Shown here piece by piece: positions 24,221-64,000 of a DNA stretch of 64,000 bases; positions within the stretch are counted from its first letter, which is position 1; each line of letters begins with the position of its first letter. A program made the translations under genes and the position numbers. Origin of the DNA: Salminus brasiliensis. Lineage: Eukaryota; Chordata; Actinopteri; Characiformes; Bryconidae. The notes under the pieces were generated by a model that saw nothing but the letters and a program-made list of their open reading frames with translations, was not told the origin of the DNA and made no database searches. The stretch spans positions 27,212,269 to 27,276,268 of the forward strand of contig NC_132892.1 of the NCBI RefSeq assembly GCF_030463535.1, written 5' to 3'.

Positions 24221-27200
24221 ATGTGTAGGTGTGCTCCACCTCTATGCCTGTGGTTGGCTCTGGTACTGCTCTCTCCACTGCACGGTATGCCTTAAACAGC
24301 CAACTTTGCATTACATCTAAACACAACAAAAAATGAAAGTTTAGATCTTAAGTTGAGGTTTAGGTCTTACAAAAGTTAAATGAGTAGAAGTTTAGATTTG
24401 GCAAAAGTTGGATAAGTGAAATTTAACTGTAGAGAAGAGGTTTAGCAGTTTAAATCTTGTAGAAGTTGAATGAGTGAAAGTTTGTATCTTTTAGAAGTTG
24501 GATGGTTAGTAGTTTACATCTCCAGTAGAGTTGTAGATCTTGCAGAAGTTAAATGAGCAGAAGTTTAGATCTTGCAGAAGTTGGATGTTGGGCAGAAGCT
24601 ACAGATAATTAATCTATTTGTTTAACTACAATTACATTCATTCAGTCATTCGCAGCATGACATTTGTAAATAATTTTCCCCAAAGCAGAAGATGGCATAG
24701 TTAAGAGAGACATAAATTGAAGCATAGGTCCTAATAGGATCCTTAGGGCTCATGCGATTAAGGACGACTATGAATGAATGCTAACTGATGGTCAAAGAGC
24801 TACTATACTGTCCTATTTCTCTACCTATCACATGTGCATTGTAACCTGATTGGCTCATTTTTTTTGACTGACATGCCCTAGCAAAGGTCAGCGCCCCAGC
24901 CCAGCTGCACGCGGCACTGGGGCTCCCGTTTATGCTGGGCTGTAACGTGACGACAGAAGTCGGGGACAACATCAAACAGGTCCGCTGGCTGGACGTCCGG
25001 AATAAGACCATCCTTCACTACGAGCCTCAGAATCCCAGTGGCCTTACCAGTCACGATGGAGTTAAGCTGGTCAGCCAGCATGCACACACCAGCGTAATTG
25101 CCATCCAGAATGTCAAGCCAGGGGACGAGGGCTGCTACACATGCGTGTTTGACGTGTACCCATCAGGGCAGCAGCAAGGGAAGACTTGCCTCTTTGTGAT
25201 GGGTAAGGTGATGCTAATCTTCATTCTCTCTGTATGATAGAAACTGTATATGCCTTAAGTGCCTGCATGGGAGGAGGAGCTTATACAACATCAGCAGTCG
25301 TATGAATATGGGAACTGTTTACAATTTCTACAATATAAAACTCGTTAAAACTAGTTGTCCTTTTGACTCTTTGTTCACACTAAAATAGAAGACACATATC
25401 GCAACAACCGCTCAGCGTTTCAACACATTCCCAGTGATAAGCCCAGCTGTCAGCTACTGAAACTCCTTGATAGCTCCTGTGATGCTGGCAAAGATTAAAC
25501 CAAAACCTCGCATGAAGCATTGCTCTTTTGCACATGTGTGGCAGTTTAGGAGCAAATATCCATATGTTGGATATAGGTCACATTAAAAGGGTAGTGTGAG
25601 TAGGCTAGAATAACATCGGATATGGTGAGAAAATTGTATTTGGACCACTTTACCTGCTGCGTGAGCGTAACCTTCTGAATGAATTTCGGGTGAACGCTTT
25701 GATAAATTAACTATTTTTCCAGAAGGAAGAATTTCTTATAATTTGTTTTAAGTGAAGCTTTTTGGATGAGGTTTTCACAGGCTCTGCCTAATCATTGTGG
25801 TTACCAGAGAATGTTAAAGAAATATTTTAACCATTCATGCTAATGTTGCTAACAATTAATGCAAGCTAGTAGAAACCAATTAGCAAGATATTGAGCATTT
25901 GAGCAATGCTAATCTGAGAACTATCCCTTCAAAAACAGCAAAAATAACCAGAAATTTGCCAGAAACATCATAGCACAAAGATGATTTTCAAATGATCCAA
26001 ACTTTCAGTCTTTACATTATAAACACAACAACTAAAGAGCTAACGGAAGACCGGAGAAGGAAGAAGCAAGGAGGCTGCTTAAAGGCTAAAATATCCCCAA
26101 CCAATGTCACAACCTTACAATTTATACTTTAAATAACAACTTTAAACATTAAATAAATGCATGGAATGGTTTTCTTGGCGCTAGTAAATGTGTCAAAATT
26201 ATTGGGTAACTAATGATGCAGTACAGATGCAGCAGATTGAGGTTATATTGAAGACCTCTGGAGTATTCCTTTAAATAAGCTGGACACACTTAAGTTGATA
26301 GCATTGTAAACCTTCAGATAGACTGATGATTTCCCCACTTATATCTTGAGAAGTAGAACACACAGTCTGTGTAGAGAGCAAGAGTAGAGAGTGGCTTTAC
26401 TTGGTACAGTTGCTACTGATGGTTTGGCCAAGTTTCAGAGATCAGTGAAAAGCTTTGACAAGGGCTTTAATTGTCCTTGTGTTCTGGCCTGTGAGGGCCA
26501 GGGCAGGAAGAGGTTTGGTGTTCTTAATTGAGGCAGTGCATAAGAGTCTAACTTCCTTTCCTATAATCTTCCTGGACTTCCTGTTTAACTCACAACAAAG
26601 TGTCATGACGACTGAAGTCCACATCAGAAACAAAGTCAGAAAATACCAGCTGTAGTTTCAGATACGAAAGGCGGTATCCTTATATGTCAAGAGTTGTGCA
26701 GAATTTGTGAGCAATTGATGACAATAATTAATGTTATCTAGATTAGATTAGAATACATGCAAAGAAATAAAATGATCTAGCTCCAGACACTGCTTGGATT
26801 TGTTCAGTTCCATCACCAGCACATCTGATTTAAATGTCATGCAATTAAAGTACTATCGGCTGAACTCAGTATTGGATGGTAACTAGTAATGGATTTGAAT
26901 ATGCAATGCTGGGGTAACTTGACACAGGTTTCACCTTTATATGTGACTGAGAAACAAACCCATGTTGACGCATGGCTCTCTGGCAATAAGCAAAGCCAGT
27001 CATAGTTATCTTTTAATAATAATAAAAAATATAGAATAATAATAATCATTAAATTGTCAAAATGAGTTACTTATGCAAAATAATTGTGCTAATATCTCAA
27101 GCTGCTCAACATATTGTTTTAGCATTGATCTCACAGTGTATGGATGTGCAGTGCTGACATTGCAGGACATGCAAGGTCAAGTGAGACAAATATGTCTAAT

Positions 27201-30200
27201 GAAACATCATACTATAACTTGTGTTATACAAAAGGAAAGTGTGGAGTGTTCTCATCTCCCATGATAGATCTTCCAGATTATATTATATCTATTATATCTG
27301 CCCAATGTCATTTGTTGTACTCCAATCTTGGATTTACTGAGTGCATTATTAATATCATGACATACTGGATCACTGACGTCTGGAGAAATCCAGTGAAAAT
27401 TCCAGTATTTTTTAAAATCGCTATTTAATATTGCAAAACAACAACATATCTCAATTTCAGTTTTTTCTAATATTGTGCAGCCCTATTTTATCCCACATTT
27501 GTGTTAAATTGAAGAAAAGATGATTTTCTATAATTACATTTACATTTATGGCATTTAGCTGACACTCTTATCCAGAGCGACTTACTCGTCGCTTTACTCT
27601 ACTTACTCGTTTACCCGTATTACAGAGGTGGGCCAATGTAGTGTTAGGAGTCTTGCCCAAGGACTCTTATTGGTGTAGCGCAGAATAGTCACCCAGACCA
27701 GTAATCGAACCCCAGTCTCCCACATGGTGTGGTAGCTTACTGGCCAGTAGTGGTGTTATCTGTTGCGCCACACCAACCACACCAATCACACACTATAATG
27801 ATATGAATTTCAAATCTATGCAGCTTGTATGTGGGCCTTTTATTTTTTGGCAGAAGTTACCGAATAAATACATCAGTATGCCTCAAAACCTTCATAGACA
27901 GCATCTTATATTCTTAATTTTTTTTTTTAAATAAAACATGGTACACAGCATAAAAATATGCTACACGTATGTTCTTTAAGTGATGCCATAGAAGTACCAC
28001 TTTTGGTTCCATAAGTAAAATAATACGAGATATTTGAGTGTAAAGAGCCTTTTAAAGGCAGATTATGTAAATATTTTTTACAAATGGTTCTTTATGAACC
28101 AAACAAGTTTTCTCTAAGGCATGGTGGCTCACAGCTTTGAGCCACCACAAAATGACACTCATTTCTGGACAAGCTGAGAGAAACAGAACCGTCACAGAAA
28201 GTGGAAGAGGCATGTGGACTGAGGCGGAAGAGTAATATTACAGGATTTTACACAAATACTCGGGTTGCGTTGTGTTAAGCAGTCCTTGTGAGCATTTCCT
28301 GCCCCCTTTAACAAAGTTACATAGTACAGTTAGCAGCATGATGATCCCAGAGTGGGAACATTAGAGATGTGGTTCTCCCTATTATAGTCAGTGGAGCATG
28401 TATTTTTTGTTGCTATTTTTAGGTAAACATTCTACATAATGTAAAGTAGTGTAAGTATAAAGGAAAAGCACATTGGCACTGAATCATTGTAAAAAATTAA
28501 ATAGCACAACAATGTAACAATAGATGCCTAAGGGTTAAACCTGCACACCAGACATGGCCGGTTTAATTCAATGACCAATTGTTCCCTCTTTTCCTCTCAG
28601 CAAAGGTGGAATCTCTGGGCAACAAGACAGCAGTCAGAGGAAAACCAGCTACACTCTCTTGTGCATACGCCCTTGCGGAAAGAGTCCAGCAGGTCCTGTG
28701 GAAGAAAACAGCAGAGCAGGGCGACACGGTCACCGTTGCCTCCTACACCAAGCAGGGCAGCCTTACTGTGGATACGCCGTTCCAGGACCGGGTGAAGCTG
28801 AGCCACTCCCTGGGGCACAGCCAGCTGACCATAAACCCTGTTCATACCGAGGATGAGGCGTGCTACACCTGTGACTTCCACACATACCCGCTGGGCTCGA
28901 AGAGCGTGACAGCGTGCCTGGCTGTCTATGGTATGTCCTGAGGATAATGATAATGATGGTGTGTAAAATATTGTCAAATAACAGTATAGTGAATTACGGT
29001 ACTGTTGCCAATTTACCATGGAGCAACTGGGGCCCCTAGATTAGCATCCCGTCCCAGTGTAGTGGAAGTAAAAATTTCATGATGAATGGAAATGCTCCAA
29101 AATTTATTTCACATTGACCTCCACTGAGGGTTAAGAAGGTTTTCCTTCTATTGTAAAGTTGCTGTTTGGGTGTTTTTGAGATTTTGCATGGCAGCAGCTT
29201 AATAAACAGACAAACAGGGGAACTATATGGTGGGACAAGCAAAACAGAAACCGTCTCTGGAAGAGCTTACAGACAAGACACAGGACAAATGGGTGGAGCT
29301 GGGAGGAGCATAGAAACCATAACAAATGCACATGGCAGAGACTCACAGGAAGCCAAACAAAAACAAATAGCGATGTGGGACAGGACAAGGAACAAAAACA
29401 AAAGGAGTGATAGACAAAGACATAGCTAAGGCCGGGCAATCATTACACCCAGCAAACCCGGACAGTGCCGTGCCCCTCTACAGTTACTGTAACTATAGCA
29501 CTATCCACAATACTAAACTGCTGATTAATCCATAACCTATAATCTAATCCTTAGAAATAGACCATGAAAATCATATTAATCAAACCCATCATTACCTTAC
29601 TGTTCAGTTATGTCTAATGCATTTAAAATGTAACACTTTAATTTAGAATTCTCTTTAGTAAATTATTACTTTAGTAAAAAATTATTGAATCTATCTTTCT
29701 GTCTGTCTATCCGTGTGTATGTCTTTCCATCTGTCCGTCTGTCTATGTAGTCATGTAGTTGTTATATAACTAGTATATAACAAGTATAACTAGTAAAAAA
29801 TGAGTGTCTGTCTCTCTGTCTGTCTGTCTATCCATCTGTCTATCTATCTGTCTATCCATCTGTCTATATGTCTGGTGTGCCTATATATCTATATGTCTAT
29901 GTGTCTGTCTGTTTGTCTATCTATTTATCTTTCTGGCTGGCTGGCTGTATCTGTCTGTCTGTCTTACATACACATCAAGTTGGCTTTGTAAACAAAAATG
30001 TATAACTTCACATATTTGTCATAATCACATAATCAGTCCTAAAGTAAAGTAGTGCAGTTCAACACCCTTTACACCAACACACATGACTTTATTGGACTTC
30101 CCTCAAACCTGAACATTTCTACATTTTCCCTTTTACCCCAAAAGTAGTCAGTAATTATCTGTATTGCACCAGCAATAAGAGGGAGCATCATGTAAACTGC

Positions 30201-33200
30201 ATATGTTATACACTGCTATTGTTATTATTCTTGATTCCAGGCTGTGCTTTGGTCCACTTTGTGGATGAAAGGGGGTCATACAGTGTTAGAAACCACATAA
30301 TTAAGAAAATCTGAGTCTACTTAACAGCCTAACATGGTGTGAGGCCAGTGTGTGATAACTTAGGCATGCTGTTTGCACAGTGTTAATTAGTGGTTAATAG
30401 CTTCCCTTATTTCGTCGGCCTTGAAGCTCCAGTGCAAAAGTAAAGAAGCAAAGTTTGGACACCAAACTCATCCTGGCCTACGTTGTTAGAGAATCTGTCT
30501 TTAACACAGAGCCTGGCTACATAACATTGATGTAATCGTGCGTTTTTAGCATGAGTACTGTTTCTGTTATATCCGTGCTTGTTGTATTCCTGCGGTGTTG
30601 TATTGGTAAACCACCACCTTGGAATTTAGTGAAAATGTGACCACAGCACTTGTTTATTTACTCTACTACAGTGTAACTGAATTGTTTTTGGTCTGTTGGG
30701 TCATGGAAGGTTCCTGACATTTCTTGGCTGTGATACAAAGCGAGTGTTTTCAAGGAAGCGGTGAAAGAATGAATGTGCACACACCAATGATTACCCACTG
30801 TCATTGCTGCACCACTCAGGAAAAGGAAGACATTACATAAACAAACCATCATTTCAGGACAATAAAAAAGGGATAAAGCTTGAGGGTGAGCTACTGGTCA
30901 CATAGTTTTTACACTCTGAAACAGACTTGGCTCTGCCTCTATTTCTCTCTAAATAGATCCACAGGGGCACTTCCTTAAGAAATGCTAACATAGCAGGGTC
31001 ACAGTTAATAGGTCACAGGATGCAGTGGCCATTTCTCAGTTTCTACATTAGCAAGCTTGCAGTGCTCTTGGCCAGTTCTCAAAGGCACAAAGTGCATTCA
31101 GTGCATGCAAATTCTGAGAAGCTCCTAGAAACAGTGTAACAATAGTAAGTATGCCTGGAGGTCTGTTGAACAAAGTGTCTGTCTCTCTATCTGACCCTAT
31201 CTGTCTATCTGCCCGTGTGTCTATTTACCAATCTGCCTGTCTGTCTCTCTGTATGTCTATATCTCTATATATTTATTTACGTATCTGTCTATCTATCTAT
31301 CAGGTTGTCCAGCTATATATCCACAGTATCTGTCCAAATGTTTGTGGACATCTCTTCAAATGAATGCGTTCAGCTACTTTTAGGTCCACCCATTGCAGAC
31401 ACAGGTGTGCAAATGCACACATACACAGCTTGTCTAGTTGCTGTAGAGAAATACTGACAATAGATTTAGACTCTCTGGAGCAGGTAAACATGAACATGTT
31501 GGCACCATGGCTAATGCCAGGTGTGGGCTAGAGCGGTCCAAAGCCACCCAGCATTAAACTGTGGAGCAGTGGAGCTGTGTTCACTGGAACGGTGGTTGAT
31601 GCTCCATCCAATATGTTTGGGATGAGGTGGGATAGTGATCATCATCAACTTTGTGACCTCACTAGTGCTCTTGTTGCTGATTGCAATCAAATCCACCCAG
31701 CAAGTATTGCAGTTGTTCCAATACTTTTCCATAGGTTATATCTTTTTATCTATTTTCAGTACATACTGCACATACAGATTTATTGATAGACAGACAGATA
31801 AATCTATAGATAGTAGAATTGACTGATGGACAGATTGAGGGATTTTATTGATCACTATAGATAAATGTAGGTGTAGCAGTAGATGAAGAGCATGTAACTT
31901 TATATACACAGAATAAAAAGGCCTATTTCATTACATACACAGTTCTATACATCTATACATGCACAGAAATACTCAGACCTTCATGTTCAGTGGCATGTAG
32001 GAACATTAGCATATGTGCATTAACATAAACACCCGTTTACGGAACAGTAGATTCTGCCATTGGCCTGGAACGGCAGCTTTTATCCCAGGCTGCTATGTCT
32101 CACAGTGCTAGGCTGTCATTGTGAGGCCAGTTTAAGGGGGTTGCTTTGGACCACGGCCATTTACCGTTACTGAGCCAGTGTTTGTCCCAGAGACAGAGGA
32201 CCACTGTGTGTCTCTCTCTGTCTCACCACTGTTAATGTTCGCCGAACAGCCTGGCTATTGTTACTAGATGATCATCACTAACCCAAACAGTGGATGGAAG
32301 CACACCCTCACTTGCTGTCTGTTGTCTTTTCACGGCCTGTGTTTTTCCTTTCCGTGCGCTATACGTCACAGTGTCCTTTTTTCACTGAGGCCGTAACAGA
32401 CGTGACCTATGTCTAAAGTGTCTTTTATCGGTGCTAGCACACAAGCACATCCTCTGTTGTCTGGGCTAAGGGGGAGATGATGATGGTACCACTCTGACGA
32501 CAAAGTCCATCTCAATGTAACCAACAGAGGCCATACACTTATGATCTCAGTCCTGCAGAACCGTCCAGAGAACCTTCATTTATTTATTTCTTATCCTAGT
32601 GTTCCGCTTAGTTTAGCCATCTCCAGTTGTCAGTTGTATCAGTAAATTGGTACTGTTGTGACGTTTGACCCTCAAGGACACTTTCAAACCTTTAATCAGG
32701 ACATTTATGACATTTATGTTGTCTTCACAGTCCTGCCCAATCCTGAAGTGAGCTACAGCATTGAGCTGGGCGTGGTCCAGGCCAACTGCACAGCTGTGTC
32801 CCGTCCACCAGCCGAACTCATCTGGAATGTGGAAAATCATAACCGCACATTGGGTCCCTCAGAGACTTCCTTTTATCAGCACGGGGACGGCACCACTACG
32901 GTGGTCAGCACCATTCTGCTACAGGCCGGACTGCTGGACGAGGAGCAAGTGACCTGTACGGCCCTGCACCAGGGCCTGGGAACGAACATTTCTGTTCATC
33001 TGAACAAGAGTGAGTGTGCAGAAATAGCTTTTCAGTGTTAGACAGGAAGAAATGAAGAATAACTAGCTAATATAGCTTAGTGATTATGTTAGTAATTAAG
33101 TAATCCAATCATTATTTTATTGATTAACTGAGAAATACTGTTACTATACTGTTTTAGTATAGAATTAAAATAATTGAACAGTTTAATGATGTAAGGCCTT

Positions 33201-34020
33201 TCAAATGTTTCACAATACATGCCTGGAAAAGAAATGAGTACTGTGCAAATGTTTAAAAAAACTGTTAAATTCTGCTTATCTGGGCAGTTAGTGTTTATTT
33301 CCTCAGTAAAACATTAATATTAAAATAAATACTGATGAAAAGCGTCATGGTTTTCCATCACTGTTAATTAAAACATCCCCAAAGTGGGATGTCTAGTATT
33401 ATTTACAGCTATCATCCAACACCTGGTTTGGTAAATCAATGCTTAATGATGGTAAATCAGGTGAGCTGCTGCGGATGGAATCTAACATACAGGGCATGCA
33501 CATTCGCTCATAAAATCTCAGCTACTTTCTTAAAAGTTTAAAAGAACTTTGTGTTCATTTTTATTTATGTTTAGCTGCATCTGTTCTAACAGGATCTGGA
33601 GTTTCTACAGTAAAAACTCAAAAAATGCTTTAATAAGGAATAAGGTAGTCTAAAGTCTGGGTGTCTAAAACTTCTGCACAGTACTGTATATAAAAACATG
33701 TGGCATGACAAATTGGGATTGTTGTGTCTTAAATAGACATACAGAAAGTTTCTATTTTTGTTCACATGCTCATAACAGACTATCATAGGCCTTCTCTGAT
33801 GCAATGGTTGCACTGTTATGTTCTTTGAGCACTGTGCTCTTTATTTAGCCAGTCTTGTTTAGGTTTGCTAGGCTGTGCCTTGTTTTGTCTGCTGTGGCTT
33901 ACTTGCTGTATTTTTCCTCTGTGTATTGCAGCTAGAAATACCTACATCATCTTCCTCTCTGTGGGCTGTGTAGTGCTTTTACTGCTCATATGCCTGTGTG
34001 TCTGTCTGAAGAAGTGCTAG
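24221..34020 (+). CDS. cd200: CD200/OX-2-like membrane glycoprotein with two V-type Ig domains
   Basis: Cell-surface Ig-superfamily protein; mammalian CD200 engages CD200R to restrain myeloid cells. Coding exons, all joined in phase 1: 24221-24284 (signal peptide, MCRCAPPLCLWLALVLLSPL), 24882-25202 (V-type Ig), 28601-28930 (second V-type Ig), 32731-33009 (C2-type Ig) and 33932-34020 (transmembrane). The total is 1083 nt, 360 residues. Both V exons start AKV and show the CD200 pattern CYTC.F..YP.G with a further Cys near the domain end. The C2 domain has QANCTAV, ELIWNVENHNRT and QVTCTALHQG. The membrane segment ends in KKC, so the cytoplasmic tail is three residues and carries no signalling motif. 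With one V exon only, the protein would match human CD200 in layout and size. Orthology is supported by neighbouring btla. The symbol could belong to a cd200 paralogue. Confidence 0.88.
24882..25202 (+). CDS. cd200: First V-type Ig exon of the CD200-like gene (extra relative to mammalian CD200)
   Basis: This 321-nt phase 1-1 exon encodes one V-like domain: Cys in FMLGCNV, Trp in VRWLD, then KPGDEGCYTCVFDVYPSG and a third Cys in GKTCLFV. Its borders, phase and motifs mirror exon 28601-28930, which points to tandem exon duplication. Because both exons are symmetric, either could be skipped without a frameshift, giving V1-C2, V2-C2 or V1-V2-C2 forms. Confidence 0.85.
27537..27790 (-). mobile_element. 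tRNA-derived SINE (family 1), minus-strand copy
   Basis: The reverse complement runs from GGTTGGTGTGGCGCAACAGA (A-box region), through a GGTTCGATTAC-like B box, to the tail GTCGCTCTGGATAAGAGTGT and CTAAATGCC. It matches the copies at 34891, 45380 and 54294. It lies between the two V exons of the CD200-like gene. Confidence 0.75.
29692..29962. repeat. Imperfect GTCT/ATCT tetranucleotide microsatellite
   Basis: Long runs of GTCT, ATCT and CTGG tetramers with interruptions, in the intron between V exon 2 and the C2 exon of the CD200-like gene. Open frames across it are repeat artefacts. Confidence 0.85.
31180..31305. repeat. GTCT/ATCT tetranucleotide microsatellite
   Basis: A second tetranucleotide tract of the same kind as 29692-29962. 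It ends directly before a copy of repeat A. Confidence 0.8.
31325..31735 (+). mobile_element. Tc1-like non-autonomous element (repeat A), partial
   Basis: It opens with GTCCAAATGTTTGTGGACAT and holds GTGGAGCAGTGGAGCTGTGT and a GTGATCATCATC core, as at 18600-19085. The right terminus is degraded near 31715-31735. It is intronic in the CD200-like gene. Confidence 0.6.
33239..33690. mobile_element. Small inverted-terminal-repeat element in the CD200-like intron
   Basis: The left end reads GTACTGTGCAAATGTTT and the right end reads AAACTTCTGCACAGTACTGT, an inverted pair typical of Tc1/mariner-type non-autonomous elements. The internal TCTGGGCAGTTAGTGTTTAT segment recurs near 54125-54290 and near 55150-55180. 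No coding capacity is seen. Confidence 0.55.
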
Positions 34021-34236
34021 CAACACGCGGCCAGTACGGTGAGACGGTCAGTAGTCACTTCAGCATTTTCTGTTCTTATTAGATCTGTCAAAATCATGTT
34101 TGAAATGTCAATATTTATTGAATTCAATTTCAGAAATGCACATTCAAAAATATAAAATGTCCATTTGATCATTTAAAGCATCATCTGGAGCCTGTTTCAG
34201 AGCTGTTAGTCGCAGAGCATGCCATTGCTGATTATA

Positions 34237-49826: not shown

Positions 49827-52800
49827 TCAGTAGACTCGAATGGCAGCATATTCGGAGGTCTCCTCCGGATGAGTGACTCTGACTGGCGCCCTTGACTTCA
49901 CTTTGTGATTCAGAGAGGCGTACACCAAAGGATTGTCCTCATCCTCCACCTCCGCACTGAAACGGTCACACCTCCGGCCTGGCTTGGCTCCGTGACTGGC
50001 TGGATGTCTTCTGGAAGGGCCATCTCTCTGAGATGAGGCTCTAATAGGAGCATTACCATAGATGCAGTTTGATTCTGGACTGAGCTGGGCTGGAAGACTG
50101 TGGGTGTTGCCAGGTCGATTGGCCCCATGTACAGGTGGAGTATAAGAAGGCGTCTGAGCTGCACTGAACTGTAGACAAGAAGGAAATATTAGGTAGTGAT
50201 TACTAATGAACAGTTTTTGAGTAGAGCGCTTAGCTAGACAGAAACTATGGAACAAGATCAAAAATGAAAGTCACCGTCATATCAAAACCTTTTTATTTTT
50301 TATGCTCTCAAACTTATCATATTACTTACAAATACCAGATTACCTATATATTGTGAGATGCAATTTTATGCAATGCCTAATTTTACTACTTATACTATAT
50401 CTAACAACAAAATAATGAAATAATATTTACTTTTGATTGGTTTCTGTGATACAATTCTGTACAGAATTTTAAAACGTACATGAAGAGACGTACAGAAACC
50501 TTTTTTTTAATGCCCCCCGCCCTCCCGCCCTTACATTCTCTTTTTAAAATTCTCATTTCATTAAGCAAATTGCAATTGTTTTTGTTAAAATTCAAAAGAC
50601 AGAATTTAATTCATTATATTTAATTTTAATTATAAATTAAACCTTTGTTTTACATTTTGTTAAAATTTCAAGGTGACTGTTCCAATAGAAATGACCTCCC
50701 AAATGACCTAAAATGTAATTTTGTACATTGATTTTCATTAAAAGGTTTTTCACATCTTTTGTAAAAAAAAATTTAGATGTGGGTTTTTTGCAATGACAGT
50801 GATGACAAATTAAACAATATATAAAAAGTCTTTAAAGTTATCAGTTGAGATGTGTGTGCAGTTACTGTACCTGATTCTCAGCTATTTGCTCTTTCCTTGA
50901 CTGTTTTGTTCCTAAATTAATTGAACAGAACATCATGTCAGTAAAAACAATTTCCAAGCATCCAGTATATTATTGAATATAGAGTTCAGCATGTGGAGGA
51001 AATTGATCACTACATACCTCGGCACCAGATCAGGAGTAGAGTCACAACTATCACTATGAGGACCAGCACTACAATGCCACTGCAGATGTACACGTAGGGC
51101 CACAGCCAAACCATATCTGGAGGCTCACTTTGAGATCCATCTGAAACAATGAGTATTCGACAATGAGATGTTTTGATAAAGCAGTTGTTTATTATTTGTT
51201 TGTGAAATATGGTGCAAAGAAAAGTACTCTTACTTGTGGTTTTGTTTTCATTGCTTATAACTTCAATGTCTGTTTCAGACTCTGAAAGATTCAAGATAAT
51301 TAATAAACGTACATCTGTTTCAACAGCCATAAATGTTCTGGGTTATTTGTAGGAAGTATACATACTTACACACATAAGAATATAAACAGCATTTTGTGTT
51401 TACCTGTCACAGTCACATTGATATTATGGCTTTCAGTGGATACAGGTGCATGTGTCTGACACCTGTAAAGACCAGCATCCTCCATAGATAAGTTCCAGAA
51501 AGTCAGGAAAAACATCCGTTCATTCCTGTTATCATTAGTCCATTCTGCTGTTGTGCGAGTGTAATGGTTTAAAGGTGTGCATTTATTATTATCATCATCA
51601 ATTCTGCACCATAAAGCTGATACGTTCTTCCAACAGTGGGATTCAGCTATAACAGTACAGTTAATCTTCAGAGTTCTCTTTTCAGGAGCTTTCCACACTG
51701 TGCTCCGAGGAACTCTGATAGATGTAAGACAGTCCAACTCTAGAAAACAAAAGATGGGGATGGGGGAGGGGGTAGGTTGTACATTACATATAAGGTGTGT
51801 TTAGTTTAAAGTGACATAAGCCTACACACAGCTTACTACATAACCCAAGTAAACTTTATGCCCAAAAGTATGTGGACACCCCTTCTGAATATTGTATTTA
51901 GGCGTTTGTCACCTATGTTATTGATGTGTTTTTGAATTGATGTGTAAAATCAAGCATATAGCCATGCAATCTACACAGACATACTTTTCCAGCAAAATAG
52001 GCTGGACTGAAGATCACAAGGATCACACCACCTTTTCCACATGTTTGTCTGCCCTGCTAAAGCTGCCACAGTCAACTGTGAAAAGCTATTGTGAAAAGCA
52101 AGCATGCACAAAAGAAAAAACAAAAAAGGCTGCACAAACTTACAGAGAGGAACCAACAAGTGCATGGTGAGTTAAAATCAACTATCCTCATGTCATGAAT
52201 TGGGGTTGCATGTTTGAGCAGCTGCATATAAACCTAAGGTCACAATAGGCAATGCCCCGTGTTGGCATAAAGTGGCATAAAGCATGTTGCCACTGGACTG
52301 TGGAGCAGGGGGAAACATGATAAAGTGAGTGGATGCCAAGATAATACTACCAACCAGACTGCATAGTACCATTCTGTTAAGTTTGGTGAAGGAGGGACGA
52401 TATCTGGGGCCGTTTTTCAATGTCTGGGCGTCATGTACAGGTGGACTGAAGGGTGATGTTCATGCTAAAGCTAATAAATGTTTCAACATTTTGTGGAAAC
52501 TGTCTGGGAAAGACCCACTGACTGTACCCCTGTACACAAAGTGAGGTCCAAAAACGACATGATTTGACGAGCCCTGACCTCAACCCCACTGAACACTTTT
52601 GTAATGAATCAGAGCAGTGTTTCTTAACCCTGGCCCTGGAGGCACGCTGAACATACCTGATTAAGTGAATCAGTTCATTAACAAGTTCTTTCAGAGTATT
52701 AAAGCAGTGAAAACCGCTAAAATGTGCAGGGCAGGGTGCCTCCAGGACCAGGGTTGAGAAACACTGAATTAGAACATAGGGTCTTATTCACCCACCATCC

Positions 52801-59279: not shown

Positions 59280-60956
<1,677 letters not shown>

Positions 60957-62871: not shown

Positions 62872-63087
62872 CAATAGGCAACTCCGGGATGCACTTAAAT
62901 AGTTCAGACAGTTCAAACAGAAGCTCATTAGGACAACGACCACCCTGCAGGTAGGACCGCCCCCTCTACTCCTCCCAGCCACACCCTCTCTATTCTCTTA
63001 ATTATTATTAATAGGCAATAATTATTCATTCATTTTCTTATTGTGTTTTATCCTTTTTAGGATTACATCACTGTAGTGGTGGATATC

Positions 63088-64000
63088 ATGGAGGGCAGCA
63101 GTGAAATCTGCGATCTGGTGATATCTGCTGAAGAAAGCATGGAAAACATGGCTTTATATTCAGAAGAAAGTCTTTCTGTGCCAGACAAAATGGACACAGC
63201 TCAGCTGCCCAGTGAGGGTCTCCAGGCAGAGTCCCCCAAGGCTATAACCCAAGAACATCTGGACAGCACTGGAGAACTGATGGAAAGCAGCTACTTTCCA
63301 AGCAGCTATGTGCCCAGCAGCCTCGCCACTGATGAAGATGTGGAGATGCTTATGGAAATGGCTGAGTCAGGGATGATCATTGATTTAATGCGACTACCCC
63401 TTGGGACCTCATCTAGGGACCCGGTGGACATTATTGCTGAACTACTGATGAGATCCTGCAAGTCAGCTAATATTAACCCTGAAGAAGAAGAGGAGAAGAA
63501 GGATCCTTTGCCTGAGGAGCATGAGCAAACTGGCCTTGATAGAATTTATGAAATGGCTGTTTTGGACATCAGGCCTTTTCTTGCTGAATGCTCACCTATA
63601 AGCAGTGATGAAAGTGACACTTCTGAGGAACTTAGTGTCTCTAATGAAGAGGAAATGTCCCACACTGCAGAAGTCACCCCTCCCCCAGAACCAGTTCCTG
63701 TGGAGAAGAAAAAGAAGAGCTTTTTCCATTTCATTCGGCCAAAAAAAGCTTCTACCTTCAGGTTTGGACGAAAGGTATGGGAGCTTTTGCTTTAGTAGTT
63801 TGGTGATAAACACGTCATATAATTTGTTGCATTATTAATTATTGTGTAAATAATACGACAGATCATTTAGCTTGAGCTCTTTTATGATATTTCTGTGTTT
63901 GATGAGATCTTGACTTTTGTTTTGTTTGTTAAATGTTTGCTCATCAGAAGAAAGTATGTCCCGCTGGCCTGTCTGAAGATCATCAGCCCAGTACATCTGG
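63088..64000 (+). CDS. Unrecognised acidic protein, 5' part only
   Basis: I do not recognise the product. A non-coding first exon ends at a donor after 62950 (CCCTGCAG, then gtagga), and the coding exon begins at 63061 after a good acceptor (TATCCTTTTTAG). I chose the ATG at 63088 (MEGSSEICDLVISAEESMEN); upstream in-frame codons are GTG. The exon runs to 63774 (229 codons, phase 0) and joins 63948 onward (KKVCPAGLSEDHQPSTSG), which is cut by the window edge. The protein is rich in Glu, Ser and Asp, with an EEEEEKK cluster near residue 135 and a basic, aromatic stretch, KKKKSFFHFIRPKKAST then FRFGRK, near residues 210-229. There is no signal peptide or membrane segment. The promoter has an X-box and a CRE-like site. 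Confidence 0.75.

Follow-up and report, generated by a model that had tools for sequence, protein, structure and literature searches.

A CD200-family gene of the fish Salminus brasiliensis, lying in a 64,000-nucleotide (nt) stretch of contig NC_132892.1 (positions 27,212,269 to 27,276,268, forward strand; hereafter the window), carries two tandem exons for V-type immunoglobulin (Ig) domains, V1 and V2, ahead of one C2-type Ig exon and one transmembrane exon. On contig C8 of the same genome lies another gene with identical exon order (signal, V1, V2, C2, transmembrane). We consider it probable that the window holds a single CD200-family gene, and that this gene makes chiefly a type I membrane protein that has Ig domains in the order V1-V2-C2 and a very short tail, perhaps accompanied by a form from which V1 is skipped. 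The exons of the window gene are:

24221..24284, plus strand: signal-peptide exon MCRCAPPLCLWLALVLLSPLH, with ATG at 24221, ending in phase 1, donor ACG/GTATGC
24882..25202, plus strand: V1 exon (321 nt, phase 1-1), encoding the outer CD200-type V-set domain
28601..28930, plus strand: V2 exon (330 nt, phase 1-1), encoding a CD200-type V-set domain
32731..33009, plus strand: C2-type Ig exon, phase 1-1
33932..34038, plus strand: transmembrane exon, recognized by its acceptor and a hydrophobic run, with stop TAG at 34019-34021, tail LKKC, donor at 34039

Both V exons of a preliminary description of the window proved to be intact, open, and in phase 1-1, with AG/GT borders (..ccctag/CAAAGG...TGATGG/gtaagg for V1 and ..cctctcag/CAAAGG...TCTATG/gtatgt for V2), and both do begin AKV, as it had said, once spliced onto the phase-1 signal exon. 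They are separated by an intron of 3,398 nt; GC content is 0.57-0.58 in the V exons versus 0.35-0.41 in the three introns measured; and all four joins tried (V1-V2-C2, V1-C2, V2-C2, and C2 alone) are in frame. The donor of the transmembrane exon (GTACG/GTGAGA at 34039) is strong, at the 99.1 percentile of 4,002 GT sites, and the stop sits in frame 17 nt before it, leaving a short, CD200-like cytoplasmic tail, LKKC, with no signalling motif; the C8 copy is without that stop, and its frame runs on to a GATG/GTGAGT donor (LWKCVLRKD), so that the window tail is the shorter of the two.

When V2 and C2 together were compared with PDB chains, the top match was mouse CD200 (4bfi, E 1.4e-15), first of 23 chains at E <= 1e-6; this match and the CD200-type cysteines of both V domains bear out the earlier assignment of the gene to the CD200 family. 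The V domain of CD200 has an exposed disulfide between the F and G strands that is conserved in CD200 orthologs and unusual in other Ig domains, according to Hatherley et al. (PMC3664923). The F-G cysteine pair is present in all five CD200-type V domains examined (V1 and V2 of both gene copies, and the single V of a third gene discussed below), with the same gap of 14 residues from F to G that is found in mouse CD200, but is not seen in the Nectin-3 and PVR rows of our alignment and is missing, by eye, from four distinct nectin-like and one array-type V sequences of the same genome (recovered from 6 of the 11 loci looked at, the other five giving none). A disulfide bond between the F and G strands of V1 and V2 is predicted from these cysteine positions. 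The preliminary description had rightly pointed to these CD200-type cysteines in both domains; its "late third cysteine" is indeed the CD200-type cysteine of the G strand, but it is the fourth cysteine of each domain, not the third.

With Pfam cut-offs of 26 bits for V-set and 21.8 bits for ig, window V1 (3.3e-9, 37.4 bits) and window V2 (3.1e-12, 47.1 bits) score as V-set domains and window C2 as an ig domain (1.7e-4, 22.3 bits). The window contains 28 stop-free stretches of at least 100 codons (15 on the plus and 13 on the minus strand), and a loose Ig V pattern fits three of them: V1, V2, and a BTLA-like V exon on the minus strand. V1 and V2 of the window gene are 33% identical. V1 is the more diverged, as had been noted from its loops (42% identity between the two gene copies versus 57% for V2, and 22% versus 29% to the mouse CD200 V), and its steadiest stretches are KxVRWLDxxNxT (C strand and C-C' region) and DEGCYTCxFDVxPSG. 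A genome search with V1 gave 22 matches at E <= 10 from 27 candidates; the best apart from V1 itself were C8 V1 (3.2e-23), the V of the third gene (9.0e-7, 34% identity), and window V2 (2.5e-4, 32%), followed by a nectin-like V (0.0020) and C8 V2 (0.0024). A V1 profile matched a CD200-type profile built from three sequences at 4.2e-16, and scored less well (1.2e-7) against three other V sequences, two of them nectin-like and one array-type.

The gene nonetheless departs from the strict CD200 layout of one V and one C2, since in each copy C2 is preceded by two in-frame V exons; a V1-skipped form would fit that two-domain layout. Members of the Nectin/PVR family have a V domain that lacks the F-G cysteines and is followed by two C domains, and the window gene does not belong there: the F-G cysteines are present, and ahead of the membrane exon we found just one C2 exon. 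CD200R, as PMC8007030 describes it, has a signalling tail with conserved tyrosines, and a gene ending in LKKC is not a CD200R.

The second copy was found by searching the genome (1.07 Gb in 103 contigs) with V2-C2-transmembrane as query, which gave 30 matches at E <= 10 from 45 candidates; the matches on C8 correspond to V2 (57% identity, 7.6e-34), to C2 (50%, 8.4e-24) and, at the position of C8 V1, again to V2 (40%). Its exons, in reading order, are:

C8:7952494-7952431: signal exon, 64 nt, with the same GGTTAAGATG start context as the window signal exon
C8:7951820-7951500: V1 exon, 321 nt
C8:7947710-7947381: V2 exon, 330 nt
C8:7941313-7941029: C2 exon, 285 nt
C8:from 7936003: transmembrane exon

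The signal, V1, and V2 exons are 64, 321, and 330 nt long in both genes, and in each of the two copies the pair of V exons lies between a single signal exon and a single transmembrane exon. With an old second copy sharing it, the two-V arrangement has the look of a stable design, not of an accident.

In a tree of eight V sequences, V1 groups with V1 (98.6/99, Shimodaira-Hasegawa-like approximate likelihood ratio test/ultrafast bootstrap) and V2 with V2 (96.6/82), and two fixed trees that pair V1 with V2 within each gene are rejected (p 0.0013 in the approximately unbiased test, six sequences); these trees indicate that the gene already had both V exons when it was itself duplicated as a whole, and that the arrangement is not recent. 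Between the copies the ratio of nonsynonymous to synonymous differences per site (pN/pS) is 0.63 for V1 (at or above 1 in 3 of 1000 bootstraps), 0.41 for V2, and 0.47 for C2, and a shuffled-codon control for V1 has a median of 1.04: V1 is held open under purifying selection, though it changes faster. Synonymous divergence (dS) between the copies is 1.2-2.3, near saturation. We infer that the two gene copies arose in the teleost whole-genome duplication, which fits because a two-gene block lies on two chromosomes and dS is in this range, although two gene pairs cannot prove it; the only gene pair shared with the window in C8:7905001-7964000 is the CD200-type gene and a BTLA-like neighbor, the other short matches there being taken for repeats, and no further shared pair and no alpha-tubulin match was found in that interval or in 20 kb on one side of it (C8:7885001-7905000).

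Several observations weigh against the three-domain CD200-family reading: i) window V1 alone, searched against PDB, reaches 4bfi only at E 0.019 over residues 69-104, so that CD200 is not clearly found, and C8 V1 alone returns no CD200 row among 25 at E <= 0.1; ii) C8 V1 lies just under the V-set cut-off (25.2 against 26 bits), although above that for ig (24.2 against 21.8); iii) V1 stands apart from V2 in the eight-sequence tree, where Nectin-3 and PVR fall beside V2 without support (0/21), and the sisterhood of V1 and V2 is, from these alignments, unproven; iv) of the 17 mouse receptor-contact positions named in PMC3664923, V1 and V2 of both copies keep one each; v) the third CD200-type gene may be the working CD200 of this fish, since it has one V and keeps 6 of the 17 contacts; and vi) the acceptor of V1 is weak, and V1 may therefore often be skipped. 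Two of the three top PDB rows for window V1, ranked by whole-sequence score, were recA fusion chains with weak repeated pieces, which we took as chance.

The third gene lies at C15:7187000-7196900 (locus L035, 7.19 Mb), with one V (C15:7192765-7193079, minus strand) and one C2, and its locus gave a single match in the V1 genome search at E <= 10. Nectin-3 and PVR keep four of the 17 contacts each. Outside the contacts V2 matches mouse CD200 at 26-27 of 77 positions and V1 at 17-19 of 75, and at the position of F96 both window V domains have Tyr, and the C8 domains have Thr and Ser. Nor is there any sign, between the two copies, of special keeping of the receptor face: the V1 copies agree at 9 of the 15 contact positions that carry letters versus 36 of 91 elsewhere (Fisher p 0.16), and the V2 copies at 9 of 17 versus 53 of 92 (p 0.79). 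CD200 descent, as read from the alignment, is thus clear in the domain frame but not at the receptor face. Binding of CD200R by the two-V proteins may still be compatible with the low contact count, because fish CD200R may have changed too; the one-V third gene, by its sequence, looks more like a CD200R ligand than the two-V gene does. The suggestion of the preliminary description that a choice of V domains could change receptor pairing is conjectural, and both V1 and V2 have lost most of the mouse contacts.

How V1 and V2 are spliced bears directly on the product. Exon phase cannot choose between a three-domain ligand and alternative V domains, because the exons are all 1-1 and the joins in frame; joint inclusion of V1 and V2 is the default expectation. 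There is an appreciable chance, short of even, that V1 is a regulated cassette exon, both V1-V2-C2 and V2-C2 (by a 24284-28601 join) being made, with V1 covering or replacing the V2 site; this is compatible with a three-domain main product, and the probabilities of the two overlap. It draws on the frame, which is kept when V1 is skipped, and on the acceptors, that of V1 being the weakest scored in the gene (-0.9 and -0.4 in the two copies) and that of V2 the strongest (9.0 and 8.4). However, the scoring matrix was not a trained one, and control acceptors of a presumed alpha-tubulin gene in the window are as weak as that of V1 or nearly so (-0.2 for exon 2 and 0.9 for exon 3); the weakness of the V1 acceptor consequently decides nothing, and we set aside the argument for V1 skipping from splice-site strength. 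All eight donors scored (signal, V1, V2, and C2 in both copies) are at or above the 96th percentile.

Where V1 came from is a separate question. Tandem copying of V2 is its likely source, rather than import of a V exon from some other CD200-type gene. Gain of V1 from such a gene before the gene duplication (or V2 as the newcomer) strikes us as rather unlikely, despite a genome search in which V1 is about as near to the V of the third gene (34%, 9.0e-7) as to V2 (32%, 2.5e-4) and trees that give the V1-V2 sisterhood no support; V1 and V2 share the same gene, the same phase, and the same F-G cysteines and spacing, and tandem copying is the simpler route. Mouse CD200 V and the V of the third gene are themselves weakly joined in the six-sequence analysis (26.7/53 and 5.5/47), and weakly placed in the wider tree as well.

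Mutually exclusive exons are characteristically prevented from being included together by a frame shift or by an intron too short to splice. V1 and V2 show neither hallmark, and it is quite improbable that they serve as alternative V domains on the same C2 and membrane exons: V1-C2-transmembrane and V2-C2-transmembrane are both in frame, but 321 and 330 nt are both multiples of three, so that joint inclusion does the frame no harm, 3,398 nt separate the exons, and the V1 donor and V2 acceptor are both strong.

The preliminary description had also allowed for V1 as a separate gene with its own membrane exon. We scanned the V1-V2 introns of both copies for signal and transmembrane exons, and the V2-C2 introns for transmembrane exons, the scan covering phase-1 acceptor sites at set thresholds; within these limits neither copy showed a transmembrane-type exon between V1 and V2. 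Signal-type candidates in that intron amount to one weak one in the window (26157) and none in C8, and the V2-C2 intron has one weak transmembrane-like stretch in the window (30145) and none in C8. Since the scan gave no transmembrane-type exon between V1 and V2, a membrane protein containing V1 most likely uses the membrane exon that it shares with V2. A separate gene, or a remnant exon unused by the CD200-family gene, would agree with the greater divergence and weak acceptor of V1; against this, the scan showed no membrane exon and barely a signal-type candidate between V1 and V2, and in each copy V1 measures exactly 321 nt and has an open, constrained frame, making such a reading very improbable. 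Finally, separate doubling of the V exon in each gene copy, or a recent doubling, is hardly credible, for the AKV start shared by the window V exons is a poor sign of descent on this alignment (C8 V1 starts GRV and C8 V2 ASV), V1 and V2 are only 33% identical within the gene, and the trees that pair them are rejected.

If V1 and V2 are indeed joined in one transcript, as in the three-domain protein that we favor, V1 would be outermost and the first to meet a receptor in trans, and the partner could be CD200R or another molecule, the mouse contact residues being mostly changed. A domain attached at the N terminus of a V domain sits near its FG loop. With V1 attached to V2 in this way, V1 would be the more exposed domain and V2 may be partly shielded; skipping of V1 would uncover V2 and leave a two-domain CD200-like form.

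CD226 and JAML have two V-type domains, and mammalian CD200 adjoins BTLA. The fish gene resembles CD226 and JAML in its tandem V-type domains, and nectins and CD226 in the Y/F-P-x-G turn after the F strand, but unlike Nectin-3, PVR, and the nectin-like V sequences of this genome its V domains carry the F-G cysteine pair. It resembles mammalian CD200 (OX-2, 4bfi, PMC3664923) in its V2-C2 order, its F-G cysteines 14 residues apart, its short tail, and its BTLA-like neighbor, and differs in its extra N-terminal V and in the single mouse contact kept by each of V1 and V2. Mouse iSEC1 and iSEC2 (PMC5098219) likewise have extra CD200-type V domains produced by duplication, with the same extra F/G cysteines; these are separate genes neighboring CD200, however, whereas the extra V exon of the fish lies inside one gene. 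A two-V fish CD200 was not found in the literature among the titles and beginnings of abstracts listed, subscription papers and fish annotation databases being beyond reach, and this negative is weak evidence of novelty.

The neighboring features of the window and the corresponding C8 region are:

Window 51369-51800, minus strand: BTLA-like Ig V exon, convergent with the CD200-family gene
C8:7910930-7911304, plus strand: BTLA-like Ig exon, convergent with the C8 CD200-family gene

The two BTLA-like exons are 32-33% identical (E 1.3e-12 against a set of open stretches). The window exon belongs to a BTLA-like single-Ig receptor (49830-51800, minus strand) whose tail reads VYASLNH...SEYAAIRVY. 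We take the label, for the window gene only, from the tail motif VYASLNH...EYAxIxV; none of the 16 rows of a PDB sequence search with the V domain was BTLA, and a pattern scan found no BTLA-type tail motifs at C8 or near the third gene. The third CD200-type gene also has an Ig V exon next to it, 27% identical to the window BTLA-like V and on the same strand as that gene, so the two are not convergent. About 0.45 Mb from the C8 CD200-family gene, six near-equal V-type matches occupy some 170 kb (C8:8403552-8571464; L046-L050 and L052), of which L046 reads ...DEGIYTCIFNIFPSGP.... The window also contains a gene at 59373-60953 (plus strand, at least three coding exons) that is presumably alpha-tubulin, and a 244-codon open stretch at 63061-63792 (plus strand) for an acidic protein without family assignment.

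CD200 is an immune "don't attack" protein, and this fish relative of it has two outer recognition domains instead of one. In the CD200-CD200R complex, two proteins of two domains each touch by their outer V domains, over a span of about four Ig domains (PMC3664923), and a three-domain relative kept in two fish gene copies would alter this geometry. Ray-finned fish may keep an old three-domain CD200 branch beside a one-V CD200, with V1 as a second recognition domain under its own constraint (KxVRWLDxxNxT), the branch having shifted either to two receptors or to one different from CD200R, and V2 being covered or exposed as V1 is included or skipped; we offer this picture tentatively, as one that has only a modest chance of being right. 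Because bony-fish CD200R sequences have been reported (PMC8007030), the pairing of CD200 with CD200R in fish is directly testable, and the two-V gene offers a natural way to ask if receptor choice is altered by an additional V domain.

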